Source of the DNA: an uncultured Duganella sp.
Lineage (GTDB): Bacteria > Pseudomonadota > Gammaproteobacteria > Burkholderiales > Burkholderiaceae
Assembly (NCBI GenBank): GCA_946482335.1
Contig: CAMLRG010000057.1
Span: 1-29,276 of the forward strand
Reading direction: 5' to 3'
Length of the DNA stretch: 29,276 nt
The position numbers and the translations under genes were made by a program. Shown here one piece after another: positions 4,137 to 18,586 of this stretch; the first letter of the stretch is position 1, and each line of letters opens with the position of its first letter. The notes below the pieces were generated by a model. The model worked only from the letters and a program-made list of their open reading frames with translations. It had not been told where the DNA came from and ran no database searches.

Positions 4137-4796
4137 CTAGGCAAGCTTGAAGACTGACTTGAGTTCTGCGACCTGCTCCGGGTTCAAAGGGCTGGTCGGC
4201 GTATTGCGCAGCAGCAAGAACAGCTTGGCCGTCTCTTCCAGCTCCTCTGTTGCATGGACGGCAGCTTCGATCGACGTCCCCGAAACAACCGGCCCGTGGT
4301 TGGCGAGCAGCACCGCGCAATGTTTGCGCGCCAGACCACGGATCGCATCGCCCAGCTTCGGATCGCCGGGACGGTGATAGGGAACCAGCGGCAGCCGGCC
4401 TATTTTCATCACGAAGTAAGCGGTCAAGGGCGGCAAGCAATCGTCATGCTTCAGGCCGCACATGCAGGACACCGCGGCGGAATGCGTCGAATGCAAATGC
4501 ACGACTGCGCCTGCCCCAGCACGCTCCTCGTACATCGCACGGTGCAGGAAGGCTTCCTTGGATGGCGCATCGCCGCTGACATGGCGGCCGTTCCAGTCGA
4601 GTTTGGCCAGCCGCGCTGGATCGAGACGCCCGAGGCAGGCGTTGGTCGGCGTCAGCAGCCAGCCGTCATCCAGCCGCACGCTGATATTGCCGCTGCTGCC
4701 GGCGCTCAGGCCACGTTCGAACAGGGAACGGCCGAAAGCGGCGATCTCTTCGCGCAACGCGGCTTCACCGCGGCCGGTGGAAATCATGGTGCTCAT
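4137..4796 (-). CDS. otnC: OtnC-like 3-oxo-tetronate 4-phosphate decarboxylase (class II aldolase family)
   Basis: 219-residue class II aldolase/adducin-family enzyme. OtnC decarboxylates 3-oxo-tetronate 4-phosphate to dihydroxyacetone phosphate. Visible family marks are GNISVRL (36-42), the catalytic Glu in SKEAFLH (E81), metal-ligand histidines H100 and H102 in HLHSTHSAAVS, and H167 in ANHGPVV. The start ATG 4796 overlaps the TGA of the otnK-like gene (ATGA), which decides it over the longer frame. It is the last gene of the six-gene operon. Other class II aldolases such as fuculose- or ribulose-phosphate aldolases share the fold. The coupling to a DUF1537 kinase is what points to OtnC. Confidence 0.85.
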   Translation of the reverse strand: MSTMISTGRGEAALREEIAAFGRSLFERGLSAGSSGNISVRLDDGWLLTPTNACLGRLDPARLAKLDWNGRHVSGDAPSKEAFLHRAMYEERAGAGAVVHLHSTHSAAVSCMCGLKHDDCLPPLTAYFVMKIGRLPLVPYHRPGDPKLGDAIRGLARKHCAVLLANHGPVVSGTSIEAAVHATEELEETAKLFLLLRNTPTSPLNPEQVAELKSVFKLA

Positions 4797-6067
4797 TGCA
4801 GTTTGTCCCAGGCCTTGAGGAAGAAATCCTCGCTGCCAAAATTGCCGGACTTGAGTGCGAGCGCCAGCGGCCGCATGCCGTTGTCGCTCAAGGTACTCGT
4901 CCACGGCACACCGGGATCGATTTCCGGCCCGATGCGCAACCCCGTCACGCCGAGGGCCTTGACGACGGCGCCGGAAGTCTCGCCGCCGGCCACGATCATA
5001 CGGCCCACGCCGGCCTGCACCAGGCCGCGCGCAATCGTCGCCAGCGCATTCTCCACCAGATTGCCGGCTTGTTCGATGCCGAGTTCGGCCTGCACCAGCC
5101 TGACTGCCTCGGGCGTGGCGGTGGCATAGACCAATACCGGTTGTTGCGCGAGGCGGCTGCCTGCCCAGTCAAGCGCTGCCGCAATGACATCGTCGCCGCG
5201 CGCCAGGCGTATGGGATCGACGTGAAAGGAGGGGAAAGACGCGCGCATGACTTCCACTTGCCTTTGCGTGGCCACGGAACAGCTGCCCGAAATCACGGCG
5301 CGCAGGCCGCCACTCTCCGGCAACGCATCGGCGACGGCATGCGCCGCCAGCAGGCCGCGGTGGCGGAAGTTTTGCGGCAAGCCCAGTGCGATGCCCGAAC
5401 CGCCGGTCACCAGCGGCAAGTCGGCACAGGCCGCGCCGATCGCGTCAAGGTCGGCATCGCCGAGCGCGTCGACGATGGCAAGGCCGTGGTCCTGCCGGCG
5501 CAGCGCGTCGAAGCGTTCGCGGATCGCCGCAGCGCCCTGGCACACTATCGTGTGGTCGACCAGTCCGACCTTGCGCTGCGCCTGCTGCTGCAGCACCCGG
5601 ACCAGGTTCGCATCGGTCATCGGCGTCAGCGGATGGTTGCGCATGCCGGACTCGGAGAGCGGCACATTGCCGACAAAGAGATGGCCCTGGTACAAGGTAC
5701 GCCCGTTGGCGGGATAGGCCGGACAGGCGATGGTGAAACCGGCGTCCAGCGCTTGCATCAAGGCTTCGGCGACGGGACCGATATTGCCGCGTGGCGTGGA
5801 ATCAAAGGTCGAGCAATACTTGAAGAAGAACTGCCGGCAACCGGCCGCGCGCAACCAGCGCAACGCCGCCAGTGACTGCGCCACCGCTTCCTCGACCGGA
5901 ATAGTGCGCGACTTCAACGCAATCACCACCGCGTCGACATCATCGGGCAGCGGCGCTTCGGACACACCAATCAATTGCACGGTACGCATTCCCGCCTTCA
6001 CCAGCATGCCGGCGAGATCGGAGCCGCCGGTGAAATCGTCCGCAATACATCCCAACAAAGCGCTCAT
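4793..6067 (-). CDS. otnK: OtnK-like four-carbon acid sugar kinase (DUF1537)
   Basis: 424-residue kinase. OtnK phosphorylates 3-oxo-tetronate at O4 with ATP before OtnC decarboxylates the product. The N-terminal substrate-domain signature is CIADDFTGGSDLAGML (7-22), followed by KYCSTFDSTPRGNIG. The C-terminal nucleotide domain carries VAGGETSGAVVKALG and the conserved GPEIDPGVPW. Start ATG 6067 overlaps the TGA of the upstream oxidoreductase and has GGAGG ahead of it. The related D-threonate kinase DtnK is usually paired with a PdxA2-type dehydrogenase. Here the partner is an OtnC-like decarboxylase, so OtnK is the better call. No OtnI isomerase or LtnD/DenD dehydrogenase is in the operon. 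Confidence 0.87.
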   Translation of the reverse strand: MSALLGCIADDFTGGSDLAGMLVKAGMRTVQLIGVSEAPLPDDVDAVVIALKSRTIPVEEAVAQSLAALRWLRAAGCRQFFFKYCSTFDSTPRGNIGPVAEALMQALDAGFTIACPAYPANGRTLYQGHLFVGNVPLSESGMRNHPLTPMTDANLVRVLQQQAQRKVGLVDHTIVCQGAAAIRERFDALRRQDHGLAIVDALGDADLDAIGAACADLPLVTGGSGIALGLPQNFRHRGLLAAHAVADALPESGGLRAVISGSCSVATQRQVEVMRASFPSFHVDPIRLARGDDVIAAALDWAGSRLAQQPVLVYATATPEAVRLVQAELGIEQAGNLVENALATIARGLVQAGVGRMIVAGGETSGAVVKALGVTGLRIGPEIDPGVPWTSTLSDNGMRPLALALKSGNFGSEDFFLKAWDKLQ

Positions 6068-7239
6068 GGCCTGCCTCCGGCCACGGCGGCCAGCGCCGCC
6101 GCCGGCGCGCACTGCTTGGCGAAACGGGCGATGTGGTATTGCCCGATCGGCGTGCTGGTGGCGCCGGTGTGGATCAGCTCCGCCATCACGCTGCCCACGC
6201 CCGGCCCCAGCTGGAAGCCTTCGCCGGAGAAGCCGAAGGCGTAATACAGGCCCGGTACGCGCGCACTCGGCCCCATGGCCGGCTGGCTGTCCTCCATATA
6301 GCCCTCGATCCCGGCCCAGACGCGGATGATGTTCAACTGCTTGAGTGCCGGTACCACGCGCGGGGCGTTTTTCAGCTTGTACAATGTGCGGCTCGGGTTC
6401 ACATAGGCGCGCACGTTTTCAAGGTCCGCCGGTTCATGGCCTCCGCCGCCGATGATGATATTGCCGCGCGCAACCTGCCGCAGGAATACCACCTTCTCGA
6501 ACACATCAGCCATCGCACCGATGGTTGGCCCGATGGCATAAGGCACGGGTTCAGTGACGCACATCTGCGGCGCTTTGGCGATCATCGGCACCGGTTCGCC
6601 GAAGGCGCTGCTGATACGGTTGCCCCATGCGCCGGTGGTGACGAGCGCCACGGGCGCGCGGAAGGTCCGGCCATCGGCGGCGGTCACGCGGAACTCCTCG
6701 CCATCCTTTTCGACGCTGACGATTTCGGTATTCTCGAATACTTGCGCACCTTCGCGCGCTGCGGCACGGCCGATCGCCGGCGCCGCCAGGCGGGGATTGG
6801 CATGGCCGTCATAAGGGGCATAGCAAGCCGCCGTGATTTCCGGTCCCAGGTAGGGGAAGCGTTCGCGCAGCACCTTTGCGCTCATCATCTCCATGCCCAG
6901 CCCGAAGTCCTTCGCGTCTTCCGTGTATTTCAACATCCGCTCTTCATGCGCCGGTGTGTAGCCGACGCGCAGATGGCCGTTCAACAACAACTCGACATCA
7001 GCGCCGAACAATTCCTTGAACTGCAGCCAGATCTCGCGCGAACGGTTGGACAGTGGCAGCTGGTCGACCGGGCGGCCCATCCGGCGCGTATTGCCGAAGT
7101 TCACGCCGCTGGCCTGCTGACCGATCAGGCCCCGTTCGAGCAAGATCACGGACAGCCCGCGCTTGCGTAAAAAGAAGGCCGATGAAGCCCCCATGATGCC
7201 GCCCCCGACAATGATCACATCCGCTTTTTGCGCATTCAT
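6064..7239 (-). CDS. FAD-dependent oxidoreductase, HcnC / opine-oxidase / hydroxyproline-dehydrogenase beta-subunit type
   Basis: 391-residue DAO-family flavoprotein that normally oxidises a C-N bond of an amino acid or opine. The FAD Rossmann motif is VIIVGGGIMGASSAFFLRKR (GxGxxG 12-17, acidic E35). RMGRP, GHANPRLAAPAIGRAA and the C-terminal FGFSGEGFQLGPGVG are typical of the family. Encoded with the 2Fe-2S small subunit and the pyridine-nucleotide-disulphide-type subunit upstream, it is probably the substrate-oxidising subunit of a heteromeric, membrane- or quinone-linked dehydrogenase. ATG 7239 overlaps the upstream TGA (ATGA) and has GGGAGGAG upstream. Substrate is not defined; the kinase/decarboxylase pair downstream suggests a C4 hydroxylated product. 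Confidence 0.88.
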   Translation of the reverse strand: MNAQKADVIIVGGGIMGASSAFFLRKRGLSVILLERGLIGQQASGVNFGNTRRMGRPVDQLPLSNRSREIWLQFKELFGADVELLLNGHLRVGYTPAHEERMLKYTEDAKDFGLGMEMMSAKVLRERFPYLGPEITAACYAPYDGHANPRLAAPAIGRAAAREGAQVFENTEIVSVEKDGEEFRVTAADGRTFRAPVALVTTGAWGNRISSAFGEPVPMIAKAPQMCVTEPVPYAIGPTIGAMADVFEKVVFLRQVARGNIIIGGGGHEPADLENVRAYVNPSRTLYKLKNAPRVVPALKQLNIIRVWAGIEGYMEDSQPAMGPSARVPGLYYAFGFSGEGFQLGPGVGSVMAELIHTGATSTPIGQYHIARFAKQCAPAAALAAVAGGRP

Positions 7240-8612
7240 TCCATCTCCTCCCCCACCGCCATCCACAGCGGCTTGACCGGCGCCTGTCCCCGCAGGCGCC
7301 CTACCTGTTCCACCGGTACGCTGGCGGCATGAGCGATGACTTCCGCCCCCGCGTGACCGCAATACCGCCCCTGGCAACGCCCCATGCCGACGCGGCACAA
7401 TGCCTTGGCACGGTTTGCCTCCAGTGCGGCCTTTCCGCTCACAGTGCGGCGCAATTCGCCCGCTGTAATCGTTTCGCAACGGCAGACGATGGCGTCGTCC
7501 GGCAGCAGCGCCGCCTGCTGCGCCGGCCACGGAAACGCTTGCGCCAGGCCCCGGCGGAAACGCTCCATGCCTGCCTGTTGCGCCCGCAGCCCCTGCAATT
7601 CGCCTTCCGCCACCGGGAGTTTGAAATCCTTCAGCACCGCCATGGCGGCCAGGCGGCCGCCAATTTCCGCGGCATCCGCACCGAGCACCTTCATGCCGTC
7701 GCCGGCCAGGTAGACGCCTGGCACCGAGCTGCGTCCATCTTCCCCGACCTCGGGCAGCCACTGGCGAGTCTCATGGTCGAAACGGAAGGTGCAACGCGCC
7801 AGGTCAGCCAACTGGGTTTCAGGGCGCAGGTGGTAACCCATGCCCACCGCATCGCATTCGAAGGAACGCTCCTTGCCGTGCCGGTCGCGGATCACCACTC
7901 CCCGCACCCCGGCGTCCGGCGAACCCTTGATTTCGACCGGCGTGATACCGGTCAGCACCGGCACGCCCGCGCGTTTCAGGTTTGCCACCAGCGCCAGGCC
8001 ATCGCGCAGAACCGCAGGGCGCGCCAGCAGTTTCGGCAACGCGGCCACGCGGCGCATGAAGGGCGAAGTGTCGAGCACGCCAGCGACCGTGGCGCCGGCC
8101 TGCACATATTGCGAAGCCACCAGGTACAGCAGCGGCCCGCTGCCGAGAAACACGACTTGCCGGCCGATCGCGCAAGCCTGCGCCTTCAAAGCAATCTGCG
8201 ACGCGCCCAGGCTGTAGGTACCTGCGTAATGCCAGCCCTTGACCGGCATCAGGCGGTCGGTCGCGCCGGCGCAAATCACCAGCGCGTCATAAGGCAGGGC
8301 CTTGTTGCGTCCGGCCTGTACGACGTACAGCTTGCGGTCGGCGATATTCCAGGCCAGCGTCTCAGGCAGGTAATCGACCTTGCCGCGCAGCGCCTCAAAG
8401 CTGCCATGGAGCGCTTGCGCCTTGCCCGCTTCCGTGCCGTACAGTTTGGCATAGGGGCGGGTGAAGTTGCCAGGCTGGCGGCGGTAGATCTGGCCCCCGC
8501 AACTGCGGTTCTCGTCGACCAGGGTCGGGCGCAGGCCGGCGGCAACCAGGGTTTCGGCGCAGCGCACGCCGGAAGGCCCGGCGCCAATGACGATTACGCG
8601 CGGTTGGGCCAT
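7236..8612 (-). CDS. FAD/[2Fe-2S] oxidoreductase, HcnB / opine-oxidase / hydroxyproline-dehydrogenase alpha-subunit type
   Basis: 458-residue subunit with an N-terminal FAD site (VIVIGAGPSGVRCAETLVAA, residues 7-26), the CGGQIYRR motif (38-45) typical of this family, and a second Rossmann-like unit (VVFLGSGPLLYLVASQY). The C-terminus is a BFD-like [2Fe-2S] domain with C377, C379, C413 and C418 (C-x-C then C-x4-C). It presumably passes electrons from the beta-subunit flavin through iron-sulphur centres. Start ATG 8612 has GGAGG 4 bases upstream and overlaps the small-subunit gene by 19 bp. HcnABC homologues occur both as hydrogen cyanide synthases acting on glycine and as opine or D-hydroxyproline dehydrogenases. 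This operon context favours a catabolic role. Confidence 0.88.
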   Translation of the reverse strand: MAQPRVIVIGAGPSGVRCAETLVAAGLRPTLVDENRSCGGQIYRRQPGNFTRPYAKLYGTEAGKAQALHGSFEALRGKVDYLPETLAWNIADRKLYVVQAGRNKALPYDALVICAGATDRLMPVKGWHYAGTYSLGASQIALKAQACAIGRQVVFLGSGPLLYLVASQYVQAGATVAGVLDTSPFMRRVAALPKLLARPAVLRDGLALVANLKRAGVPVLTGITPVEIKGSPDAGVRGVVIRDRHGKERSFECDAVGMGYHLRPETQLADLARCTFRFDHETRQWLPEVGEDGRSSVPGVYLAGDGMKVLGADAAEIGGRLAAMAVLKDFKLPVAEGELQGLRAQQAGMERFRRGLAQAFPWPAQQAALLPDDAIVCRCETITAGELRRTVSGKAALEANRAKALCRVGMGRCQGRYCGHAGAEVIAHAASVPVEQVGRLRGQAPVKPLWMAVGEEME

Positions 8613-8935
8613 GTCGCCTCCGGTTGCGCCGTTACGATATGCATGCCATCTTCCACCACGGTGGTGCAGGCGCGCAAGCGCCCGCCGCCTGCGGCCCAGA
8701 CCCAGCAATCCTGGCAGGCACCCATCAGGCAAAAGCCGGCGCGCTTGCCATCGCCGAATTCGGATGCGCGAAGGTGGCGCGCATTGTTGAGCACCGCGAC
8801 CATCAGTGTGTCGCCGGCAAGGGCTTCCACGGCGTGCCCGTCGATGACCAAGCGTACCCGCTGGCGTCCGGTTTCAGCCAGGCGTGCAAAGCGTCCGCCA
8901 CCCAAGCCGGCGCGCTGTCCTGGAATCTCAATCAT
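8594..8935 (-). CDS. (2Fe-2S)-binding small subunit, HcnA / opine-oxidase gamma type
   Basis: 113-residue ferredoxin-like protein, the third subunit of the HcnABC/opine-oxidase type complex. Cysteines C69, C74, C77 and C90 give the plant-ferredoxin-like pattern C-x4-C-x2-C-x12-C for one [2Fe-2S] cluster. The preceding VRLVIDGHAVEALAGDTLMVAVL is the usual beta-grasp start. Start ATG 8935 has AAGGAGAG about 10 bases upstream. It lies 16 bp after the racemase stop and overlaps the next gene. It relays electrons from the flavin subunits, probably to the respiratory chain (inferred from family). Confidence 0.88.
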   Translation of the reverse strand: MIEIPGQRAGLGGGRFARLAETGRQRVRLVIDGHAVEALAGDTLMVAVLNNARHLRASEFGDGKRAGFCLMGACQDCWVWAAGGGRLRACTTVVEDGMHIVTAQPEATWPNRA

Positions 8936-8951
8936 ATCCACTTCTCTCCTT

Positions 8952-9614
8952 TCAATGAATCTTCGGCGCCGCACCCGCCAGCTCCTGCATCAGCAGTGGC
9001 GGGCTTGCCAGGACCGGGCATGGCAGTTGCGCCGCGAGGGTGTCGCGCAAGTGCGCCAGCGATGCCTGGGCAAGCACCAGCACATCCACTTCCCCTGCAA
9101 TCGCCCTGGCCGCCTCAACAAGCAATGCGTCATGCCGCGCACGGTCGCCCGCCATCAGTGCCTGGTACGCCTCGGCGCGCAGCACCGTCTTGACAATGAT
9201 CTCGCGTCCTTGTTGTGCGGCATGCGCTTGCAGCAATGCGCCGCTCGGTTCCACGGTGCTGGCCGCCGTGCAGAGCAAGCCAATGCGCGTCCCGCTGCGC
9301 ACTGCTTCCGACATCATCGGGTCATCGATCTTCAGGATCGTTTGCGGTGTGAGCCGCCGCGCGATATCGACCGCCGGGGACATCGATGAACAGGTGACGA
9401 CGATCAGGTCCGGTTGCGTTTCGGCCGCCAGTACGATCTGGTCGACCACGCGCCGGTACACCAGCGCCCCAGGCGCGCCGCGCAACAGGTCTTGCAACAG
9501 GCTTTCGTTAAGGATGTGGAAGCAGTCGGCATCGGGCATTTCGGCGCGTAAGCGCGCGCGGAAATCATCGACCAGGAAACCGACGGTATGGACAAAGGCA
9601 ATGCGTTTACTCAT
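8952..9614 (-). CDS. Asp/Glu/hydantoin racemase-family protein
   Basis: 220-residue member of the Asp/Glu racemase fold family and first gene of the operon. The first catalytic-type cysteine is in IVVTCSSMSP (C75). KIDDPMMSEAVRSGTRIGLLCTA matches the conserved middle of the family. At the position of the second catalytic cysteine the sequence is DVLVLAQASLAHL, without Cys, as in a subgroup of the family whose chemistry is not a classical two-base racemisation. It may racemise or isomerise the substrate of the downstream dehydrogenase, but this is inference. Start ATG 9614 has GGGAG 8 bases upstream. A 3-codon frame, ATG-AAT-GAG-TAA (9618-9607), overlaps the start out of frame. Confidence 0.82.
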   Translation of the reverse strand: MSKRIAFVHTVGFLVDDFRARLRAEMPDADCFHILNESLLQDLLRGAPGALVYRRVVDQIVLAAETQPDLIVVTCSSMSPAVDIARRLTPQTILKIDDPMMSEAVRSGTRIGLLCTAASTVEPSGALLQAHAAQQGREIIVKTVLRAEAYQALMAGDRARHDALLVEAARAIAGEVDVLVLAQASLAHLRDTLAAQLPCPVLASPPLLMQELAGAAPKIH

Positions 9615-9650
9615 TCATGACTCTCCCGCAAGCCCCGCGCGTGCGGAGCG

Positions 9651-9687
9651 GATGAGTCATCATATTCGGAATTTGATATCATATAAT
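9651..9687. promoter_or_regulatory. Divergent promoter/operator region, racemase operon and LysR gene
   Basis: The 111-bp gap between the divergent genes holds three short symmetric elements: GATGA-G-TCATC (9651-9661), ATTC-G-GAAT (9664-9672) and TGATATCA (9674-9681). There is also a direct repeat ATCATAT (9659 and 9678). A perfect TATAAT (9682-9687) faces the LysR gene without a good -35. TATGAT on the minus strand (9665-9660) faces the racemase operon. This fits LysR autoregulation and activation of the divergent operon. Confidence 0.5.
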
Positions 9688-9725
9688 TTACATTTTCTAA
9701 CTTCATTCGGTCTCAACCGTTAATA

Positions 9726-10658
9726 ATGGATGGCCTTTCCGATTTATCGTTTTTCGCGCTCGTGGTGAAATGCGGCAGCATGGCTGCCGCCGCCCAGGAC
9801 CTGGGGGTGACGCCGCCGGCGGTCAGCAAACGCCTGGCCGCCATCGAGGCGCGGCTGCGTGTCCGCTTGCTGAACCGCACGACGCGACGGATGAGCTTGA
9901 CCCCGGAAGGCGAAACCTACCTGGCCGAAGGCGAAAGAATCGTTGCCGATCTGGAAGCGCTGGAGCAAAAGATTTCCGGTGCCAGCGTCACCCCGCAAGG
10001 CCTGCTCCGCATCAACGCCACCCTCGGTTTCGGCCGCAAGCAGCTGACACCACTGATTTCCCGCTTCGCCAGGCAGTTTCCGGCAGTCGACGTGCAGCTG
10101 CACCTGAGCGAACGCCCGGTGAACCTGGTGGAGCAGGCCTTCGATCTCGCCATACGTTTTGGCGAGCAGCCGGACGCGCGCATTACGGCGCGCAAGCTGG
10201 CGGACAACCGGCGCTTCTTGTGTGCTTCGCCGAACTACCTTGCCGCACGGGGCACGCCGCAGTCGCCGCGCGACCTGCACAACCACAGCTGCATTGTGCT
10301 GCGTGAAAACGATGAGATTTATGGAAGCTGGCACTTCACGTCCGGCACCCGGCAGGAAGCGGTCAAGGTCAGGGGACCATTGAGCAGCAACGATGGCGAG
10401 ACCGCCCTTGCCTGGGCGCTCGATGGACATGGCATTGTGTTGCGCTCGGAATGGGATGTGGCACCTTACGTGCGATCGGGGCGCCTGCGCCGGCTGCTTC
10501 CAGACTGGGCAGCGCCGCCGGCAGACATTTACATCATGTTCCCCACCAAAAGCCATTTGCAGGCCAGGACGCGTGCCATGGTCGACTTCATGCTGGACGC
10601 GTTTTCCGACAAACGGGGTAACCATCCGGCCACCGGCAATGATGCGCTGAGATGGTGA
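9726..10658 (+). CDS. LysR-family transcriptional regulator (DmlR-like)
   Basis: 310-residue LysR-type regulator. The N-terminal winged HTH covers about residues 4-62 (CGSMAAAAQDLGVTPPAVSK, RLLNRTTRRMSLTPEGETY). The C-terminal part is a periplasmic-binding-protein-like effector domain (LLRINATLGFGRKQLTPLIS, FDLAIRFGE). It is transcribed away from the racemase-dehydrogenase-OtnK-OtnC operon, the classic layout for a LysR activator and its target. It could also act on the plus-strand cluster beginning 188 bp downstream. The sequence style recalls DmlR/TtdR-type regulators of hydroxy-acid catabolism, which would suit a hydroxylated C4 inducer. That subfamily call is from memory and weak. Confidence 0.9.
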   Translation: MDGLSDLSFFALVVKCGSMAAAAQDLGVTPPAVSKRLAAIEARLRVRLLNRTTRRMSLTPEGETYLAEGERIVADLEALEQKISGASVTPQGLLRINATLGFGRKQLTPLISRFARQFPAVDVQLHLSERPVNLVEQAFDLAIRFGEQPDARITARKLADNRRFLCASPNYLAARGTPQSPRDLHNHSCIVLRENDEIYGSWHFTSGTRQEAVKVRGPLSSNDGETALAWALDGHGIVLRSEWDVAPYVRSGRLRRLLPDWAAPPADIYIMFPTKSHLQARTRAMVDFMLDAFSDKRGNHPATGNDALRW

Positions 10659-10672
10659 ACCGCCTCGATACT

Positions 10673-10701: not shown

Positions 10702-10846
10702 GCTGTAGAACTGGCGAATAATGCGGTGTAGAGACGAAAGAAAGCCTTATTGTGCTAGCTGCGCCGCTTAGGCTGGCACCTTCGTTCGGGGAATGCTGAG
10801 TAAGATATCTCCAGCTTCTTCACCTCCCCTCCACGAAAGGAAAATC

Positions 10847-11518
10847 ATGAGCATCGTCTACCGGCCCAAATACATCAGCTTCGATTGCTACGGCACTTTG
10901 ACCAACTTCCAAATGGCGCCGATGGCCCGCAAGTTGTTTGCCGACCGTATCCCTGCGGAAGACATGGAACAGTTCTGCAGGGACTTCGCGACGGCCCGCC
11001 TTGACGAAGTGATGGGCGACTGGAAGCCTTACTACGAAGTGATCTTTGACTCGGTGCTGCGTACTGCGAACCGGTGGAAAATTCCATTCCACGAAGCGGA
11101 CGTGCGTGCCATCTACGATGCCGTGCCCACCTGGGGACCGCATCCGGACGTCGTTGAAGGGCTGGCGCGAATCGCCGATAAGATTCCATTGGTGATCATG
11201 TCGAACGCCATGGATCACCAGCTGGTGCATAACGTCGAAAAGCTGAAGGTTCCTTTCCATCGCGTGTTCACCGCTCAACAAGCAAAGGCCTATAAACCGC
11301 GTCATCGTGCATTCGAGTACATGATTGAAAAATTGGGCGCCAAGCCGGAAGATTTCCTGCATGTGTCGTCCAGCATGCGCTACGACCTGATGCCGGCAAA
11401 CGACATGGGCATCAAGAACAAGGTCTTCGTCAATCGTGGCCATGAGCCTGGCACGCCCTACTATGGTTACAGCGAAATCAACGATATCGGCGGATTGGCC
11501 GCCCTTGTCGGTCTCTAA
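10847..11518 (+). CDS. Haloacid dehalogenase type II-like hydrolase (HAD superfamily)
   Basis: 223-residue HAD-fold hydrolase. Motif I FDCYGTLTN has the nucleophile D13 in the D-x-Y-G-T form typical of L-2-haloacid dehalogenases rather than the DxD of phosphatases. Motif II is IMSNAM, motif III AYKPRHRAFEYM (Lys), and motif IV HVSSSMRYDLMPANDMG. 2-Haloacid dehalogenases convert 2-haloalkanoates to 2-hydroxyacids. Many homologues have other, unproven substrates, and the neighbours here suggest a 2-hydroxy- or 2-amino-acid related compound. Start ATG 10847 follows GAAAGGAAAATC. It is the first gene of the plus-strand cluster, 45 bp before the dehydratase. Confidence 0.85.
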   Translation: MSIVYRPKYISFDCYGTLTNFQMAPMARKLFADRIPAEDMEQFCRDFATARLDEVMGDWKPYYEVIFDSVLRTANRWKIPFHEADVRAIYDAVPTWGPHPDVVEGLARIADKIPLVIMSNAMDHQLVHNVEKLKVPFHRVFTAQQAKAYKPRHRAFEYMIEKLGAKPEDFLHVSSSMRYDLMPANDMGIKNKVFVNRGHEPGTPYYGYSEINDIGGLAALVGL

Positions 11519-11563
11519 AGATTGTCAGACACGCCACCAGCCTGCATATTGGAGATTGAACTG

Positions 11564-13318
11564 ATGGACAACAACGAAACTTCGCCCAAACGAACGCTGC
11601 GCAGCGCTCGCTGGTTCCGCAAAGACGACCTGCCCGGCTTTGTGCACCGCTCGACCCTGGCTGCGGCAGGGTGGAGCCGTGAAGACCTCATGACCCGCCC
11701 AGTCGTTGGGATCCTGAACACGTGGTCGGACATCAACCCGTGCAACCTCAACCTGCGCGCGCTGGCGGAGGAGGTACGCACAGGCGTGCTGGAAGCAGGT
11801 GGCATCCCGTTCGAGGTTCCGCTGATGTCAATCAGCGAAAACATCATCAAGCCGACGTCGTTCCCGTTCCGAAACCTGCTGGCGATGGAGGTGGAGGAAA
11901 CACTGCGTGGCTATCCTTTCGATGCCGTCGTCCTCCTCGGCGGCTGCGACAAGACGCAGCCGGCACTGTTGATGGGTGCGGCCAGTGCCAGGATTCCCTT
12001 CGTATTCCTCGCCAGCGGCCCGGCGACACCGCGCTCGGCGAGCGGCGGGCAGTTGGCAAACGCCACTGGCGTCTGGCGCTTGGTCGACCAGCTTCGTGCT
12101 GGCCAGTCGCAATGCGACTTCTCAACTTTCGAAAAAGATGTCATGGGCACGGTAGGCCACTGCGCCGAAATGGGCACGGCCTCGTCAATGGCGGCCCTTT
12201 GCGAGGCGCTGGGTGTGGCGCTGCCCGGCAGCAGCTTCGTGCCGGCCACTGACCGCCGCCGCAGCCATCTCGCCAGGGAGGCGGGCCGACGCTGCGTTCG
12301 CCTGGCAGACGACGGCGCCCCGCGCCCGGAAGAAATCCTCGATGCGCGCGCCTTCGACAACGCCATTACCCTCTTGTGTGCAGTGGGCGGCTCGACCAAC
12401 GCGATCATCCACCTCCTGGCACTTGCCGGCCGCGTCGGCGTTCCTTTGAGCCTGGACCGCTTCGATGAGATAGGCCGCCGCGTGCCACTCATCGCCAACG
12501 TCCAGCCAGCCGGTGAACACTTGACTGAACGGCTGATGACGGCCGGTGGCGTCCCTGCCCTGCTCAAGACACTCAAGCCGCTGCTGCACCTGGACGCACG
12601 GACGGTTGACGGGCGTACGATCGGCGAGATCATCGAGTCGGTTGAAGTTCTCGACCCCGAGGTGATACGGCCGCTGGACCAGCCCGTGAAGACCGGCGAG
12701 ACCCTGATCGTGGTGAAGGGCAATCTTGCGCCGGACGGCGCCGTGATGAAGACTTGCGCCGCCGACCCTAAGCTGTTCCGGCACCGCGGCCGCGCCGTGG
12801 TGTTCGAAGACGTGCAAACCATCGCCAACCGCATCGACGACCCCGCGCTCGATATCGATGAGAACAGCGTGCTGATTCTGCGCAATGCCGGCCCGGTGGG
12901 CGCCGCGATGCCGGAGTGGGGCATGCTGCCCCTGCCCCGTAAGCTCCTCGAGCGCGGCGTGCGCGACATGCTGCGTATCTCGGATGCGCGGATGAGTGGC
13001 ACCGCCTACGGCGCGGCCGTGCTGCACGTCTCGCCGGAAGCCGCAGTGGGCGGCCCGCTCGCCCTGGTGCGCGACGGCGACATCATCGAACTGGACGTGG
13101 CTGAGCGTCGTCTGGAACTGTGCGTCGAGCCGGAAGAGCTCGAACGCCGCCGCCAGGCGTGGCAGCCGCCAGCCCGCACGCACGCACGCGGCTACCGCAA
13201 GCTGTACGATGACCACGTCGAACAGGCGCACCGTGGATGTGACTTCGATTTCTTGCGCGGTGCCGACCAGGAGACGCTCCCTGAGGGCCTGTTCGATGGC
13301 TGGGTAGGGGGCTGGTAA
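11564..13318 (+). CDS. IlvD/Edd-family sugar-acid dehydratase
   Basis: 584-residue [2Fe-2S] dehydratase converting 2,3-dihydroxy acids to 2-oxo-3-deoxy acids. Cluster cysteines are C60 (NTWSDINPCN), C128 (GGCDKTQPA) and C200 (GTVGHCAEMGTASSM). K130, next to D129, is the lysine that is carbamylated in this family. The length and the MGTAS motif resemble pentonate (arabonate/xylonate) dehydratases more than the branched-chain enzyme IlvD or the phosphogluconate enzyme Edd. Start ATG 11564 has GGAG 9 bases upstream; a TTG at 11522 is in frame but poorer. Only 2 bp separate it from ghrA, so dehydration followed by reduction of the 2-oxoacid is a reasonable reading. Exact substrate unknown. Confidence 0.88.
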   Translation: MDNNETSPKRTLRSARWFRKDDLPGFVHRSTLAAAGWSREDLMTRPVVGILNTWSDINPCNLNLRALAEEVRTGVLEAGGIPFEVPLMSISENIIKPTSFPFRNLLAMEVEETLRGYPFDAVVLLGGCDKTQPALLMGAASARIPFVFLASGPATPRSASGGQLANATGVWRLVDQLRAGQSQCDFSTFEKDVMGTVGHCAEMGTASSMAALCEALGVALPGSSFVPATDRRRSHLAREAGRRCVRLADDGAPRPEEILDARAFDNAITLLCAVGGSTNAIIHLLALAGRVGVPLSLDRFDEIGRRVPLIANVQPAGEHLTERLMTAGGVPALLKTLKPLLHLDARTVDGRTIGEIIESVEVLDPEVIRPLDQPVKTGETLIVVKGNLAPDGAVMKTCAADPKLFRHRGRAVVFEDVQTIANRIDDPALDIDENSVLILRNAGPVGAAMPEWGMLPLPRKLLERGVRDMLRISDARMSGTAYGAAVLHVSPEAAVGGPLALVRDGDIIELDVAERRLELCVEPEELERRRQAWQPPARTHARGYRKLYDDHVEQAHRGCDFDFLRGADQETLPEGLFDGWVGGW

Positions 13319-13320
13319 TC

Positions 13321-14247
13321 ATGGCAATTCTTTATCGATCTGACGCCCCGCGGGCAGCGGCTTGGGCGAAGTACTTTTCAGCGCATGCTCCCGACCTCGA
13401 TTTCCGGGTGTGGCCCGACGCCGGAAATCTCGACGAAATTGAATACCTGATCGCCTGGCAGGCGCCGCCGGATTTGCTGGCTGCCCTGCCGCGGCTCAAG
13501 GTGCTGTTCTCCTCAGGCGCCGGGATCGATCACGTCGACTTCTCGACCGTTCCAGCGCACATTCCGATTGTCAGGATGGTCGAACCCGGCATTATCGATG
13601 GCATGGTGGAGTATGTGAGCCTGGCCGTGCTCGCCCTTCACCGCGACTTCTTTGATTATGTGGCGGCGAAAGCGGCGCGTGGCTGGGCCCCCCTGGAGGT
13701 GCCACCGGCGTCGGCGCGCTCCATCGGCGTGATGGGACTTGGCGTGCTGGGACGGGCGGTCCTCGATCGGCTCGCGGCTTATGGATTCAGGCTGCGCGGC
13801 TGGAACCGCTCGCCGCGAGACATTGATGGCGTGGAAATTTTCACCGGTGCCGACCAGCTGCAGCCTTTCCTCGCCGGCTGCGACATCCTGATCTGCCTGT
13901 TGCCGCTGACCTCGGCCACCAAAGGGATCCTGAACGCCGGGCTGTTTTCCGCGCTGCCGCGCGGCGCGGCGCTGATCAATGTGGGCCGCGGCCCGCACCT
14001 GGTCAATGCGGATCTGCTCGAAGCGCTGGATGCCGGCCAGCTATCGCGTGCGATTCTGGACGTGACCGATCCCGAGCCCCTGCCGCCGGAACACCCGCTC
14101 TGGTTGCATCCGCGGGTTTTCCTGACCCCCCATGTGGCGAGCATGACGCAGCCTGAGACCGCAGCTCCAATCCTGCTCGAGAACCTTCGCCGGCACCAGC
14201 GCAGCGAGCCGCTCAAGGATGTCATCGACCGCACCCGTGGCTATTGA
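13321..14247 (+). CDS. ghrA: Glyoxylate/hydroxypyruvate reductase A-type 2-hydroxyacid dehydrogenase
   Basis: 308-residue D-2-hydroxyacid dehydrogenase. GhrA reduces glyoxylate, hydroxypyruvate and related 2-oxoacids, preferring NADPH. The nucleotide motif is GVMGLGVLGRAV (GxGxxG about 139-144), and the catalytic triad is visible as R223 (NVGRGPHLV), E252 (DPEPLPPEHPLW) and H271 (LTPHVASMT). SSGAGIDHV and WNRSPRD are typical of the GhrA subgroup. ATG 13321 stands 2 bp after the dehydratase stop. With the transhydrogenase genes 71 bp downstream, an NADPH-dependent reduction step in the same pathway is plausible. In a general sense it could also act on glyoxylate from elsewhere. Confidence 0.88.
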   Translation: MAILYRSDAPRAAAWAKYFSAHAPDLDFRVWPDAGNLDEIEYLIAWQAPPDLLAALPRLKVLFSSGAGIDHVDFSTVPAHIPIVRMVEPGIIDGMVEYVSLAVLALHRDFFDYVAAKAARGWAPLEVPPASARSIGVMGLGVLGRAVLDRLAAYGFRLRGWNRSPRDIDGVEIFTGADQLQPFLAGCDILICLLPLTSATKGILNAGLFSALPRGAALINVGRGPHLVNADLLEALDAGQLSRAILDVTDPEPLPPEHPLWLHPRVFLTPHVASMTQPETAAPILLENLRRHQRSEPLKDVIDRTRGY

Positions 14248-14318
14248 TTGCTGGTCGACCTGTTAGCGCTAGCCTTTGCTGGGCACAGGGACATCTGACA
14301 GATAAGAAAGAGGAATTA

Positions 14319-15431
14319 ATGAGAATTGGCATTCCTGCCGAGACCTGGGCAGGCGAGACCCGTGTTGCCGCGACTCCCGAGACCGTGAAGAAATTATCGG
14401 TGAATCACAGGGTGATCGTCCAGCATGGCGCGGGTATGGCGGCTTCAGTCACCGACGAGGCATATGCAGCTGCTGGCGCCATCATGGGCAGTGCGGCTGA
14501 GGCATTCAATGCCGATATCGTGCTCAAAGTACGGGCGCCGAATCAGGACGAGCGTGCGCTGATCAAACCGGGAACAGTACTGGTCGGCATGCTCAATCCC
14601 TTCGACGCCGACAACCTTGCCGCAATGGCAGCGTCTGGCCTACGGGCCTTCGCGTTGGAAGCCGTGCCGCGCATCACGCGCACGCAATCGATGGACGTCC
14701 TCTCATCGCAGGCCAACATCGCCGGCTACAAGGCGGTCATGGTGGGGGCACATACCTACCAGCGCTTCATGCCAATGCTGATGACGGCGGCCGGCACGGT
14801 GAAAGCCGCCCGCGTGCTGATCATGGGCGTGGGCGTGGCGGGGCTACAGGCCATTGCAACGGCCAAGCGCCTGGGCGCGGTCATCGAAGCGTCCGATGTA
14901 CGGCCGCCCGTGAAGGAACAGGTGGAGTCGCTGGGCGCGAAGTTTCTCGATGTGCCATACCTGACGGACGAGGAACGCGCGATTGCACAAGGCGCGGGCG
15001 GCTATGCGCGTCCCATGCCGCCGGATTGGATGAAACGCCAGGCGGAACTGGTGCATGAGCGCGCCAAACTCGCCGACATCATCATCACCACCGCCCTGGT
15101 CCCGGGGCGCACCGCGCCCGTGCTGATCAGCGAGGAAACGGTAAAGGCAATGAAGCCGGGCTCTGTGATCGTGGACCTGGCGGTGGCGCAGGGCGGCAAC
15201 TGTCAGCTCTCCGAGCCTGGCAAGACCGTGACCAGGCACGGCGTGCATATCGTGGGCGAGCCGGACCTGGCCTGCCAGGTGGCGGCCGATGCGTCCGCAT
15301 TGTACGCGCGCAATGTGCTCGACTTCCTCAAGCTGATCATCGGCAATGATGGCGCACTGGCCATCGAGCGCCAGGACGAAATCGTTAACGCGACGCTGGT
15401 ATGTGCCGACGGCGCGGTACTGCGCAATTAA
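14319..15431 (+). CDS. pntAA: NAD(P) transhydrogenase alpha subunit, part 1 (NAD-binding)
   Basis: 370-residue soluble dI domain of proton-translocating transhydrogenase, which uses the proton motive force to drive hydride transfer from NADH to NADP. The NAD site is [20 protein letters not shown] (GxGxxG 170-175). The conserved RQD loop is R118, Q123, D126 in [15 protein letters not shown], and [11 protein letters not shown] follows. As in Rhodospirillum rubrum, dI is a separate polypeptide. Start ATG 14319 has AGAGGA 5 bases upstream; longer in-frame extensions lack the family N-terminus MRIGIPAET. The next gene begins 11 bp downstream. Confidence 0.95.
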
Positions 15432-15442
15432 GGAGAAACGCA

Positions 15443-15760
15443 ATGGAAACCAGTCATACCATCATCAATCTGATCATCTTCGTCCTGGCTATCTACGTTG
15501 GCTACCACGTGGTCTGGAACGTGACGCCGGCGCTGCATACGCCATTGATGGCGGTGACCAATGCGGTGTCGGCCATCATCATCGTCGGCGCCATGCTGGC
15601 GGCAGGCTTGACCGAAGGGCTGACGGGCCGTGTGGCGGGCACGTTCGCGGTTGCGCTGGCGGCTGTCAACGTATTCGGCGGCTTCCTGGTCACCCAGCGC
15701 ATGCTGGAGATGTTCAGGAAGAAGCAACCCAGGGCCGCGCTGAAAGGAGGCAAATCGTGA
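15443..15760 (+). CDS. pntAB: NAD(P) transhydrogenase alpha subunit, part 2 (membrane)
   Basis: 105-residue membrane subunit carrying part of the dII proton channel. Three hydrophobic segments are visible (about 8-25, 38-57 and 65-82), with the family motif [19 protein letters not shown]. Start ATG 15443 has AAGGAG 7 bases upstream. It lies between pntAA and pntB, and its TGA overlaps the GTG start of pntB, indicating coupled translation of subunits of one inner-membrane complex. Confidence 0.95.
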
Positions 15761-17244
15761 ACATGGCGTTTGTCAGCATAAACCTGGTGACGATGCTGTA
15801 TCTCGTCGCTTCAGTATGCTTCATCCAGGCGCTGAAGGGGCTCTCCTCTCCCGCCAGCGCGCGCGTGGGCAATGCCTTCGGCATGAGCGGCATGGCCATT
15901 GCCGCCATCACTACCGTGGCGCTGATCCTCAAACTGCGTGCGGATGCCCTGGCTGCCGGGGCGCCCGGCCATGGCGGCACGGGACTGGCCCTGGTGGCCG
16001 TGGGCGTGGCGGCTGGCGGCGGCATCGGCGCCATGCTGGCCAAGCGCGTCGAAATGACCAGGATGCCGGAGCTGGTGGCGGCGATGCACTCGCTGATCGG
16101 CCTTGCCGCCGTATGCATCGCGGTCGCGGCGATCTCCGAGCCCCAGGCTTTCAGCATCGCTGCGCCGGGCCAGGCGCTGCCGCTGGGGAATCGCATCGAA
16201 CTCTGTATCGGCACCTTCGTCGGCGCCATCACTTTCTCCGGATCGGTGATCGCGTTTGGCAAGCTGTCAGGCAAGTACAAGTTCCGCCTGTTCCAGGGCG
16301 CGCCAGTGGTGTTCGGCGGACAGCATTTGCTGAACCTGGGGCTGGCCGCGTGCATGGCCGGCCTGGGCCTGCTCTTCGTCTTCACGCCCGGCACATCGCC
16401 TGCGTGGGCGCCTTTTCTGCTGATGACGGCCATCGCCTTCCTGCTCGGGGTGCTGATCATCATCCCGATCGGCGGTGCGGACATGCCTGTGGTGGTGTCG
16501 ATGCTGAACTCCTATTCCGGCTGGGCAGCGGCAGGCATCGGCTTTTCGCTGAATAACGCCATGCTGATCATTGCCGGCTCGCTGGTCGGCTCCAGTGGCG
16601 CAATCCTTTCCTACATCATGTGCAAGGCGATGAACCGTTCCTTCTTCAACGTGATTCTCGGCGGATTCGGCGGGGAAAGCGCGGGCGGCGGCAGCGCTGG
16701 CGCAGGTGCGCCACCAGCGCGCCCCGTGAATGCCGGCTCCGCCGATGATGCGGCTTTCATCATGACGAATGCGAATTCGGTCATCATCGTTCCTGGCTAT
16801 GGCCTGGCCGTGGCCCGGGCCCAGCATGCGTTGAAGGAACTGGTGGAGAAGCTCACTCACAAAGGCATCAGCGTAAAGTATGCGATCCATCCAGTGGCCG
16901 GGCGTATGCCGGGCCATATGAACGTGCTGCTGGCCGAAGCGGAAGTGCCTTACGACCAGGTATTCGAGATGGAAGATATCAACGGCGAATTCGGCCAGGC
17001 CGATGTCGCATTGGTGCTGGGCGCAAACGACGTGGTCAACCCCGCCGCCAGGGACCCAAAATCGCCGATCGCAGGAATGCCTATCCTGGAGGCGTACAAG
17101 GCGAAAAGCATCATCGTCAACAAGCGCTCGATGGCGTCAGGCTATGCAGGCCTGGACAATGACCTGTTCTATCAGCCAAATACGATGATGGTATTCGGCG
17201 ATGCCAAAAAAGTCATTGAGGATATAGTCAAGGCAACTGAGTGA
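15757..17244 (+). CDS. pntB: NAD(P) transhydrogenase beta subunit (membrane + NADP-binding)
   Basis: 495-residue subunit with several membrane helices of dII (about residues 5-290) and the C-terminal NADP-binding dIII. dIII shows [50 protein letters not shown] and [14 protein letters not shown] 15757 is chosen as start because GGAGG is 6 bases upstream and it overlaps the pntAB stop (GTGA). ATG 15763, two codons later, is the alternative. The three-gene transhydrogenase is inside a catabolic cluster, where it could supply NADPH to the GhrA-type reductase. A T-less hairpin follows the stop. Confidence 0.95.
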
Positions 17245-17269: not shown

Positions 17270-17314
17270 AGGCGTGATGTATTGATTCCCAACTCAACCA
17301 ACATAGGAACTGGC

Positions 17315-18586
17315 ATGAAACTTGAATCGTACTGGCTCGATACCGCACCGCCCTTCCAGGCGGCGGCCCAGGGCGCCGTTCCGCCGCGAGCGGACGTAGT
17401 GGTGGTCGGTGGCGGCTTCACCGGTCTTTCAGCAGCCCTGGCACTGGCTGAGCGCGGCGCCACGGTCGTACTGCTGGAGGCCGGCCGCATCGTGGGCGAA
17501 GCATCCGGGCGCAATGGCGGGCATTGCAATACCGGCTTGGCACATGATTATGCTGCGCTCGCCAGCCGCCTCGGCGAGGAACGCGCCCGCGCATATTATG
17601 ACGCCTATAACGAGGCGGTGCGCACGGTCGAGGCCGTCGTGGCGCGTGAAAGGATCGACTGCGACTTCCGCCGCTGCGGTAAGCTGAAGCTGGCCGCCAA
17701 GCCAGAACACTACGATAAGCTGGCGCGCGCCTACGAATACCAATGCAAGGTCGAAACTGACATTAAGCTGGTGCCGCGATCGGAGCTGGCCAGCGAGATC
17801 GGCTCCGAGCAGTATTATGGCGGGCTGCTGCAGCCGCAAGGTGCCCAGATGCATATGGGCAAATTCGGCGTGGGTCTGGCCGAAGCCGCTTCGCGCGCCG
17901 GCGCCCTGCTCTTCCAGCACGCAGCGGTGCAGGACATTGAGCGCATCAGCGGTGGCTACCGCGTGAAGTCGGCGCGCGGCGACATCACGGCCGGCCAGGT
18001 CTTCCTTGCCACCGGCAATTCCAGCCTGGGGCCGTTCGGCCATTTCCGCCGGCGCCTGGTATCGGTCGGCAGCTTCATCATCGCCACCGAACCCCTGCCG
18101 CGCGAAGTGCTGGACCGCATCACGCCGTCGCGCCGCAACTACGTGACGACCAAGAATATCGGCAACTACTTCCGCATCACCCCCGATGAGCGTTTGCTGT
18201 TCGGTGGCCGCGCGCGCTTCGCCCTGTCCAATCCTGCCTCGGACGTCAAGAGTGGCCGTATCCTGCAGCAAGCCATGGCCCAGGTATTCCCCGAACTGGC
18301 GAACACACGCATCGATTACTGCTGGGGAGGCCTGGTGGACATGACCGCCGACCGCCTGCCGCGCGCGGGCCAGCACGAGGGCATGTTCTATTCGCTGGGC
18401 TATAGCGGCCATGGCGTGCAGATGTCCGTGCATATGGGCCGGCAAATGGCGGAAGTGATGGGCGGCCGCGCCGAGAGCAATCCGTGGCGCGACCTGGACT
18501 GGCCGGCGATTCCCGGCTATCACGGCAAGGCGTGGTTCCTCCCATTCGTGGGCGCGTATTACCGCCTGCAGGACATCCTGCACTAA
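17315..18586 (+). CDS. FAD-dependent amine/amino-acid oxidoreductase (PuuB/PauB/DadA-like)
   Basis: 423-residue DAO-family flavoprotein. The FAD motif is VVVVGGGFTGLSAALALAER (GxGxxG 32-37, E55), followed by SGRNGGH (64-70), the signature of gamma-glutamylputrescine oxidase-like proteins. The C-terminus has YSLGYSGHGVQMSVHMGRQM. Such enzymes oxidise secondary or glutamylated amines or D-amino acids to the imine/aldehyde or 2-oxoacid. Start ATG 17315 follows AGGAACTGGC; the shorter-spaced upstream codons add no conserved residues. A class III aminotransferase follows 163 bp downstream, a pairing also seen in polyamine catabolism. No glutamyl-polyamine synthetase or aldehyde dehydrogenase is present, so a polyamine role is unproven. 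Confidence 0.85.
   Translation: MKLESYWLDTAPPFQAAAQGAVPPRADVVVVGGGFTGLSAALALAERGATVVLLEAGRIVGEASGRNGGHCNTGLAHDYAALASRLGEERARAYYDAYNEAVRTVEAVVARERIDCDFRRCGKLKLAAKPEHYDKLARAYEYQCKVETDIKLVPRSELASEIGSEQYYGGLLQPQGAQMHMGKFGVGLAEAASRAGALLFQHAAVQDIERISGGYRVKSARGDITAGQVFLATGNSSLGPFGHFRRRLVSVGSFIIATEPLPREVLDRITPSRRNYVTTKNIGNYFRITPDERLLFGGRARFALSNPASDVKSGRILQQAMAQVFPELANTRIDYCWGGLVDMTADRLPRAGQHEGMFYSLGYSGHGVQMSVHMGRQMAEVMGGRAESNPWRDLDWPAIPGYHGKAWFLPFVGAYYRLQDILH

Follow-up and report, generated by a model that had tools for sequence, protein, structure and literature searches.

The 29,276-nucleotide stretch of uncultured Duganella sp. DNA analysed here (contig CAMLRG010000057.1, positions 1 to 29,276; hereafter the window) carries a six-gene minus-strand operon in which a three-subunit flavo-dehydrogenase and a racemase-fold protein, RAC, are joined to the kinase OtnK and the aldolase-family protein OtnC. 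These components constitute one conserved unit, present in the window and in six more genomes. As judged from sequence, what is new would be the entry to the known OtnK/OtnC route together with a candidate new isomerase. The reading that we prefer, at just under an even chance, is that this operon forms the acid-sugar branch of a catabolic island for a nitrogen-containing compound built of four-carbon amino-acid units.

The operon begins with RAC, an Asp/Glu-racemase-fold protein (8952..9614; PF01177, 69 bits), followed after a 16 bp gap by the gamma subunit, a small [2Fe-2S] protein (about 8594..8935; PF13510). Next come the alpha subunit, an FAD/NAD(P)-type flavoprotein with a C-terminal CxC...Cx4C arrangement (7236..8612; PF07992, and 25.3 bits against PF04324, just below the cut-off of 26), and the beta subunit, the DAO-type FAD catalytic subunit of a heteromeric amine/opine-type dehydrogenase (6064..7239; PF01266, 227 bits). 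The operon closes with OtnK, a DUF1537 3-oxo-tetronate kinase (4793..6067; NF043035, 640 bits, cut-off 350), and an Aldolase_II-type OtnC (4137..4796; NF043034, 332 bits, cut-off 250; PF00596). Open reading frames and domain matches bear out all six genes, their strand and their positions as given in an earlier note on this DNA, and its naming of OtnK and OtnC holds, both exceeding curated NCBIfam equivalog cut-offs. That note had the last four genes chained by overlaps; the chain actually comprises five, with overlaps of 19, 4, 4 and 4 bp from the [2Fe-2S] gene through OtnC. Its limits for the system contain the six genes but are too narrow, in that genes at 10793–20129 recur in the same islands. 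The best PDB relative of OtnK is 5dmh, and the protein is 86% identical to the OtnK of locus L003. In OtnC, a His-Leu-His motif at residue 100 and Asn-His-Gly at residue 166 are taken to be metal ligands.

Comparisons across genomes provide evidence that this gene set is a genuine unit. First, the complex, OtnK, OtnC and the racemase occur together in six more genomes of beta- and gammaproteobacteria (loci L001–L006, from Pseudoduganella, Hydrogenophaga, Rhodoferax, Aromatoleum, Pseudomonas borbori and Massilia), at 68–91% identity. Relative to the window their gene order is permuted and a cupin gene is added. The earlier note had counted an unconserved gene order as evidence against its proposal; content is kept in these loci but order is not, and because they share the former while permuting the latter, the unit is real and mobile in its arrangement. 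Second, scanning of genome contigs with a racemase alignment yielded 31 RAC loci, in 13 of which RAC lies within 3.5 kb of OtnK; a fourteenth (L011) has a 28% paralogue. By a crude estimate, about 0.05 loci with a racemase near OtnK would be expected, compared with the 14 observed. Because the set recurs in six more genomes and 14 of the 31 racemase loci lie near OtnK, chance is excluded as its origin.

The canonical L-threonate/D-erythronate pathway (Zhang et al. 2016, as outlined in PMC12540250 and PMC10580937) consists of LtnD or DenD, OtnI, OtnK and OtnC. The window proteins passing the equivalog models belong to its last two steps, and the sister of the window OtnK clade comes from a canonical LtnD-OtnI-DenD cluster (L131, genome G061). 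Unlike the canonical clusters, the window cluster is without LtnD, DenD and OtnI, and the flavo-dehydrogenase and the racemase-fold protein stand in their place. A three-step L-threonate bypass (Guo et al. 2024, cited through PMC12540250), which uses 2-OtnK and a 2-OtnC of the F_bP_aldolase type, likewise operates without OtnI; however, it begins with LtnD, and the window OtnC is a PF00596 Aldolase_II protein rather than an F_bP_aldolase. Aldolase_II-type OtnC is described as belonging to a four-step route that needs isomerisation (PMC12540250).

Neither LtnD nor OtnI turned up when one sequence of each was compared with the window in six frames, and none of LtnD, OtnI and DenD was found within 9 kb of the window OtnK. 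In the assemblies of five of the six other unit-bearing genomes (G001, G002, G004, G005 and G006), LtnD was not found at E ≤ 1e-70, nor DenD above its cut-off, with 53 of 57 first-look LtnD candidates in G002 and 53 of 61 in G004 scored; G003 keeps both genes in a canonical cluster of their own. Since LtnD and DenD were not found in five of the six, an entry into OtnK/OtnC other than through these enzymes is likely. The earlier note proposed that LtnD/DenD and OtnI are missing and replaced, and that genomes be searched for such a combination. The set itself and the lack of LtnD and DenD are upheld to this extent, but OtnI/Hyi-family genes lie elsewhere in all six genomes and the absence of OtnI from otnK operons is commonplace. 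A missing OtnI as a remarkable feature in itself was rejected, with 33 of 50 random Burkholderiales otnK loci that have no racemase nearby also lacking OtnI within 3.5 kb.

RAC matches no NCBIfam model at E 0.001, the OtnI model NF043033 included. A single-sequence PDB search gave no match, while a profile search gave weak matches and a fold search strong ones, to the racemase fold. Cys75 corresponds to the N-terminal catalytic cysteine, aligning with that of VVACNTAS in 1b73, but the second catalytic cysteine is not kept, Gln183 being aligned to the cysteine of LGCTH. Cys75 is present in 37 of 37 alignment rows and Gln or His at 183 in all 36 readable rows (the L011 and L160 rows are the same genes). 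The RAC family counts 857 proteins at E ≤ 0.001, named in their sources, where named, 'Asp/Glu/hydantoin racemase' or 'hypothetical'. Inversion by two bases normally requires two cysteines.

The scheme of the earlier note implies that RAC is an amino-acid racemase handing the D-isomer to the flavo-dehydrogenase. Its PF01177 family and fold agree with this, as do its company of amine-type FAD enzymes in L001–L006 and its position next to a DAO-type oxidase, with no OtnK there, in four Pseudomonas loci near cellulose-synthesis genes (L007, L008, L009 and L013). The same four Pseudomonas carry OtnK with OtnI and LtnD elsewhere in the genome. Yet the second catalytic cysteine is missing, and in Arthrobacter and Haloarchaea RAC accompanies a kinase and an aldolase with amine genes unseen. 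Relatives of RAC join OtnK on several branches, partly in sugar-acid contexts. Because of this linkage on separate branches and the single catalytic cysteine, RAC is probably not an amino-acid racemase, and the role implied by the earlier scheme appears distinctly unlikely. RAC probably acts instead on an acid-sugar intermediate, and may, at somewhat less than even probability, be the 2-oxo/3-oxo-tetronate isomerase for the step that the earlier note could not place. Alternatively, RAC could be an epimerase at C2 or C3 of oxo-tetronate or tetronate, with the dehydrogenase or another enzyme making 3-oxo-tetronate directly. The racemase fold would suit such a role, and a Tdh-like Zn dehydrogenase or an SDR, families that can act on C3 hydroxyls, lies near RAC in L031, L030 and L189; retention of one catalytic cysteine of two speaks against it, and we regard it as somewhat unlikely.

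In the mechanism that we favour, the flavo-dehydrogenase would open a C–N bond and so produce, alone or with other enzymes of the island acting afterwards, a C4 oxo-acid that bears hydroxyl groups and is most likely 2-oxo-tetronate. By one-cysteine enediol chemistry, RAC would then shift the carbonyl from C2 to C3, or else correct the C2/C3 stereochemistry, taking the place held by OtnI elsewhere. OtnK would phosphorylate the resulting 3-oxo-tetronate and OtnC would decarboxylate the product to dihydroxyacetone phosphate. The chemistry of OtnK and OtnC is known from the literature, and the family assignment is made here through curated models. That the dehydrogenase product feeds OtnK/OtnC is slightly favoured. 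The substrate could possibly be a 4-hydroxythreonine-like compound or its opine.

The relation between RAC and the canonical entry genes was examined with tblastn identity thresholds of 40% for OtnI, 45% for LtnD/DenD and 26% for the racemase, each with minimum lengths; several loci stop at contig ends, so that some neighbours were possibly missed. Among 200 sampled Burkholderiales genomes (the order of G001), 52 have OtnK over its cut-off, giving 51 new loci (the G001 locus being L001), and 50 of these 51 have no racemase-family gene within 3.5 kb. Within the same distance, these 50 loci hold OtnI in 17 cases, LtnD in 19, DenD in 10 and any of the three in 22, compared with none of the three genes in any of 16 OtnK loci with a racemase near (L001–L006, L010, L011, L021, L022, L025, L026, L030, L031, L122 and the window; L160 was dropped as a duplicate of L011). 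The difference between 0/16 and 22/50 gives a Fisher probability of 6e-4 with kinship ignored, for groups that were drawn differently, the 16 mostly through the racemase and the 50 through OtnK. When mapped onto an OtnK tree with 74 rows, the 'racemase near' label requires six changes (gains or losses), and supported branches force six; by our reading, two of the six depend on L011 and L122, which carry distant racemase paralogues (28–32%). Genomes G003, G031 and G025 each have one OtnK near OtnI and another near a racemase. Strict mutual exclusion of RAC and OtnI was considered and is weakened by a Rhizobium island (L185) that holds both. In L169, the cluster that holds OtnI, LtnD and DenD also has a racemase paralogue, at 8.6 kb from its OtnK, and OtnI lies at 4.2 kb in L160, the same region as L011.

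The wider RAC neighbourhoods lean towards acid sugars, as far as gene content can tell. In Arthrobacter L030, RAC, OtnK and OtnC follow one another with 4-bp overlaps among MFS, SDR, IclR, HpaI aldolase and SMP-30/gluconolactonase family genes, with amine genes unseen. Rhodoferax L031 combines a Tdh-like dehydrogenase, RAC and OtnK, and gene sizes there suggest TRAP-type transport. Similar to the 3-oxo-isoapionate pathway, L031 also carries OiaK-like and RuBisCO-like (OiaX-like) genes; unlike it, these score 409 and 462 bits, both under the cut-off of 700, and neither was seen in the window. An OiaK-like kinase accompanies RAC in five Rhodoferax loci (L010, L015, L016, L026 and L031), with a RuBisCO-like member in four of the five and OtnK in most; these family assignments come from L031 alone. 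In L015 OtnK is fragmentary and lies at the end of a contig. Six annotated plasmid loci with a racemase relative were viewed (L184, L185, L186, L188, L189 and L190). Two haloarchaeal plasmids (L184 and L188) bring together a four-carbon acid sugar kinase, a class II aldolase and RAC (44–45% identity to the window) among sugar-related genes; in Natronosalvus L189 an SDR overlaps RAC, with a RuBisCO-like protein and a kinase a few kb off; and in L185 otnK lies 8.4 kb from the racemase relative. L122 has an FMN_dh family protein, a family that produces 2-oxo acids, near OtnK-OtnC and the racemase paralogue; its cluster mate lies near OtnK in L160. Other RAC loci depart from this pattern: besides the four Pseudomonas with a DAO-type oxidase, in L012 and similar loci RAC is found with amino-acid-type ABC, PfkB and DeoC/LacD-type proteins. 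The OtnK of Pseudomonas sp. TH31 (L022, 5348–6597) is in two adjacent pieces, and the same is true of G022.

The flavo-dehydrogenase complex is well conserved, with identities across L001–L006 of 81–87% for beta, whose best PDB relative is 1y56_B, and 71–84% for alpha. ADP-binding, [2Fe-2S] and Arg-x-Trp (FMN) motifs are described as marking heteromeric flavo-dehydrogenases (Watanabe et al., PMC4575208). The Gly-x-Gly-x2-Gly ADP-binding motif is present at position 12 of beta and position 10 of alpha, and the gamma subunit has C-x4-C-x2-C-x12-C at position 71, which fits the x11~12 family rule. Arg-x-Trp occurs in beta as RVW at 306, and also in four orthologous open reading frames called as DAO (L001, L003, L005 and L006). 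With its three subunits and these motifs, the complex resembles the OdhABC opine dehydrogenase, D-hydroxyproline dehydrogenase and HCN synthase (PMC4575208). In contrast to them, it is tied to OtnK/OtnC and the racemase-fold protein, and in alpha the CxC at 377 and Cx4C at 413 are 33 residues apart, where the spacing in that group is given as 15–20 (PMC4575208). By analogy with its family, the complex would open a C–N bond of its substrate. It might instead oxidise a C–OH group of tetronate itself, as a flavin-dependent replacement of LtnD; some hydroxyacid dehydrogenases and glycerol-3-phosphate dehydrogenase also have the DAO fold (weak NCBIfam similarity), and LtnD and DenD are missing. The closest named relatives of the complex act on amines, however, and where OtnK/OtnC are absent the same complex has HAD or aminotransferase genes and an ABC transporter of dipeptide type for neighbours, leaving oxidation of tetronate unlikely.

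Several observations weigh against the acid-sugar branch as we read it. First, the window-type complex is found without OtnK, OtnC or RAC in ~19-kb stretches of Burkholderia pyrrocinia, Massilia litorea, G419 and G202 (L181, L182, L209 and L210), and as two extra copies in G001 (L207/L208). In 17 of the 31 RAC loci no racemase-family gene lies within 3.5 kb of OtnK, and the racemase of plasmid loci L186 and L190 has no listed kinase or aldolase. Second, with kinship respected, the opposition between the racemase and OtnI/LtnD/DenD comes down to six independent pairs with a median p of 0.125; among the pairs that differ, the two traits are always opposed. Third, the OtnI/Hyi-family copies of G002 (376.6 vs 302.5 bits) and of G004 (copy C217; 402.3 vs 337.5 bits) score better as OtnI than as Hyi, so that isomerisation could occur in trans. 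The G001 C66 copy is a near tie (387.4 vs 379.5 bits), and the sole over-cut-off copy of G005, situated between glyoxylate carboligase and tartronate-semialdehyde reductase genes, is better as hydroxypyruvate isomerase than as OtnI (417 vs 390 bits). A missing isomerase in the unit-bearing genomes is thus not proved. Fourth, a one-cysteine member of the racemase family can racemise (the E. coli L-Asp/Glu-specific racemase). Fifth, a Rhizobium sp. N621 plasmid (L185) carries a RAC relative (39%) and another complex (25–32%) with ltnD, otnI, otnK and OtnC. The earlier note would have yielded if LtnD and OtnI of the same organism worked with this OtnK/OtnC pair while the dehydrogenase acted on an unrelated substrate, and the plasmid goes part of the way, joining a related gene set to ltnD, otnI, otnK and OtnC. 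Finally, no relative of the ABC importer, OCD, Thr-dehydratase-like protein, cupin, SSADH, ALDH or tartrate dehydrogenase of the related islands described below was found in the window; the importer and other island genes may lie beyond it or be absent.

These data bear on a further alternative, in which the dehydrogenase and OtnK/OtnC serve separate substrates and merely share an island, tetronate coming from elsewhere and OtnI/Hyi acting in trans. The complex in stretches without OtnK/OtnC, the ltnD-otnI-otnK block of the Rhizobium island and the OtnI-family genes elsewhere in all six genomes speak for it. Nevertheless, 4-bp overlaps link the DAO subunit, OtnK and OtnC, the modules lie close together in six more genomes, and LtnD and DenD over cut-off were not found in five of them, and we consider separate substrates a lesser though real possibility. 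As to the distribution of the complex, among 399 genomes from the order that includes G001, 3 have a DAO subunit at >50% identity, with at most four candidates scored per genome. In Pseudoduganella G001, 14 kb separates the two extra complex copies (L207 and L208); their stretches include three genes for HAD type II proteins but lack OtnK. Along the 40 kb of L185, ltnD-otnI-otnK, OtnC and RAC are accompanied by HAD, tartrate dehydrogenase, a number of FAD oxidoreductases and the second heteromeric flavoenzyme.

Returning to the acid-sugar branch, the operon appears to belong to a larger island. A divergent intergenic region of 111 bp (9615..9725), probably a shared control region, separates RAC from a plus-strand block that opens with a TtdR-like LysR-type regulator (9726..10658; PF00126/PF03466; TtdR model 239 bits, below the cut-off of 398). 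It is followed on the same strand by a HAD type II hydrolase that recurs in the islands, a candidate azetidine-ring hydrolase (10793..11518; TIGR01428, 163 bits, cut-off 125), an IlvD/EDD-type dehydratase (11522..13318; PF00920; NF004784, 772 bits, cut-off 539; 87% in L219) and a GhrA-like 2-hydroxyacid dehydrogenase (13321..14247; PF02826; GhrA model 234 bits, below the cut-off of 403; 83% in L219, 58% in L002 and L003). The transhydrogenase genes follow, PntA (alpha, 14244..15431; PF01262, PF05222) overlapping GhrA by 4 bp and PntB (beta, 15346..17244; PF02233 from residue 149) having a probably overcalled start. Last are a second FAD oxidoreductase, DAO2 (17282..18586; PF01266; AmaA model 186 bits, below the cut-off of 600; 51–76% identity in L181, L182 and L185), and a class III aminotransferase, AT3 (18750..20129; PF00202; NF004625, a model without a named function, 831 bits, cut-off 729; 61% in the Rhizobium island). 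LysR, lying between the operon and this HAD-IlvD-GhrA-PntAB-FAD oxidase-aminotransferase block, probably controls both. HAD, IlvD, GhrA, DAO2 and AT3, across LysR, recur with the operon in related islands, many on rhizobial plasmids; PntAB, inside the window's HAD-IlvD-GhrA row, was not found in the other islands searched. Window positions 4137–20129 are very probably one functional island. Beyond it, the minus strand at 21897–28357 encodes a chloride channel, a multicopper oxidase, an outer-membrane efflux protein and a TonB-dependent receptor, possibly metal-related, which need not belong to the island.

Related islands are larger. In Aromatoleum, L219 and L004 are neighbouring stretches of one contig, and matching genes run from tartrate dehydrogenase to SSADH in the order tartrate dehydrogenase, AsnC, aminotransferase, GhrA, GNAT, ALDH, HAD, IlvD, GhrA, HAD, FAD oxidase, ABC transporter, the complex, cupin, OtnK, OtnC, RAC, OCD, Thr-dehydratase-like, HAD, APH-type kinase, aminotransferase, AsnC and SSADH. 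The Rhizobium plasmid island (L185) matches the window in HAD (62%), aminotransferase (61%), OtnC (62%) and OtnK (49%), and L003 in OCD (84%) and the Thr-dehydratase-like protein (89%), neither of which is in the window. Nodule-bacterium plasmids of Sinorhizobium meliloti (L221) and Phyllobacterium (L222) have an island core of OCD, Thr-dehydratase-like, ABC, aminotransferase, GNAT, HAD, FAD oxidase, SSADH, tartrate dehydrogenase and ALDH genes without listed OtnK, OtnC or RAC, and a Variovorax plasmid has the core with the IlvD-GhrA-HAD trio and again no OtnK, OtnC or RAC listed; the gene tables of these plasmids are incomplete. Metal transport genes (ZinT, AztC, DmeF and a cation P-type ATPase) lie near the L221/L222 core. 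With the Thr-dehydratase-like protein as marker at E ≤ 1e-130, none of 385 genomes in the class of G012 was positive, in a search with no positive control and at most five candidates per genome, and the class of G005 gave a single positive among 369, G005 itself, too rare for statistics; at E ≤ 1e-100 an ortholog is found on 110 plasmid records.

The HAD protein offers a lead to the compound degraded. Its best PDB relatives are 8hp5, an (S)-2-haloacid dehalogenase (7e-22), and 3smv/8ywo/9v14 (3e-20), a sequence for which one given name is L-azetidine-2-carboxylate hydrolase; the Rhizobium and Rhodoferax HAD copies have the same PDB group on top. Azetidine-2-carboxylate hydrolase (AC hydrolase of Pseudomonas A2C; AzhA) is described as yielding 2-hydroxy-4-aminobutyrate, which is then transaminated (PMC8016842). 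Similar to that route, the window has a class III aminotransferase at hand for the 4-amino-2-hydroxybutyrate product; however, the similarity of its HAD protein is moderate (76 bits), and (S)-2-haloacid dehalogenase is another name given to the same PDB sequences. In the Rhizobium island, SSADH and a tartrate dehydrogenase family protein exceed their cut-offs. The aminotransferase, SSADH and tartrate dehydrogenase, whose family has D-malate activity, would carry the product to pyruvate via malate semialdehyde and D-malate. A two-domain ATPase of L003 passes the CntD, CntF, NikD and NikE cut-offs, and for the binding protein of the Rhizobium island NikA is the nearest model, with a score far under the cut-off. 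Because of the HAD relatives, the aminotransferase, SSADH and tartrate dehydrogenase, and the Cnt/Nik-like transport, this gene content suggests nicotianamine or mugineic-acid chelators, with which plants manage iron, as a lead, with other chelators or opines possible. Hydroxylated units in nicotianamine and mugineic acid structures could supply tetronate.

It is conceivable, but unlikely, that the island as a whole degrades plant metal chelators containing azetidine-2-carboxylate, such as nicotianamine and the mugineic-acid phytosiderophores. The steps in the full form would be uptake by a dipeptide/nickel/opine-type ABC importer, cleavage of the C–N bonds by FAD dehydrogenases, opening of the azetidine ring by HAD hydrolases, conversion of the plain C4 unit towards pyruvate by aminotransferase, SSADH and an enzyme of the tartrate/D-malate dehydrogenase family, and passage of a hydroxylated C4 unit via RAC, OtnK and OtnC to dihydroxyacetone phosphate, with RAC as an unrelated replacement of OtnI repeatedly joined to OtnK. 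Two other candidates were tried and rejected: GNAT as an Mpr1-like azetidine acetyltransferase, for which a PDB search gave nothing of that name, and the hydroxyectoine EutABC pathway, with the L003 OCD and Thr-dehydratase-like proteins under the EutC and EutB cut-offs. Among the papers listed in literature searches, titles and abstract openings showed no link between a racemase and OtnK, no named phytosiderophore catabolic genes and no characterised nicotianamine or mugineic-acid catabolic island.

If the proposed pathway is correct, OtnK/OtnC-to-dihydroxyacetone phosphate would be a shared end-module coupled to differing entrances, amine catabolism included. A racemase-fold protein repeatedly placed beside OtnK would give a family of 857 proteins a testable function. 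When mugineic acids serve as iron fertiliser, their microbial breakdown in soil is named as a disadvantage (PMC7946895), and in 2021 the taxa and genes of phytosiderophore metabolism were described as unknown (PMC7786132); the chelator reading is therefore worth direct testing. If the azetidine reading is true, the genes described here would be named candidates for the breakdown of phytosiderophores or nicotianamine.

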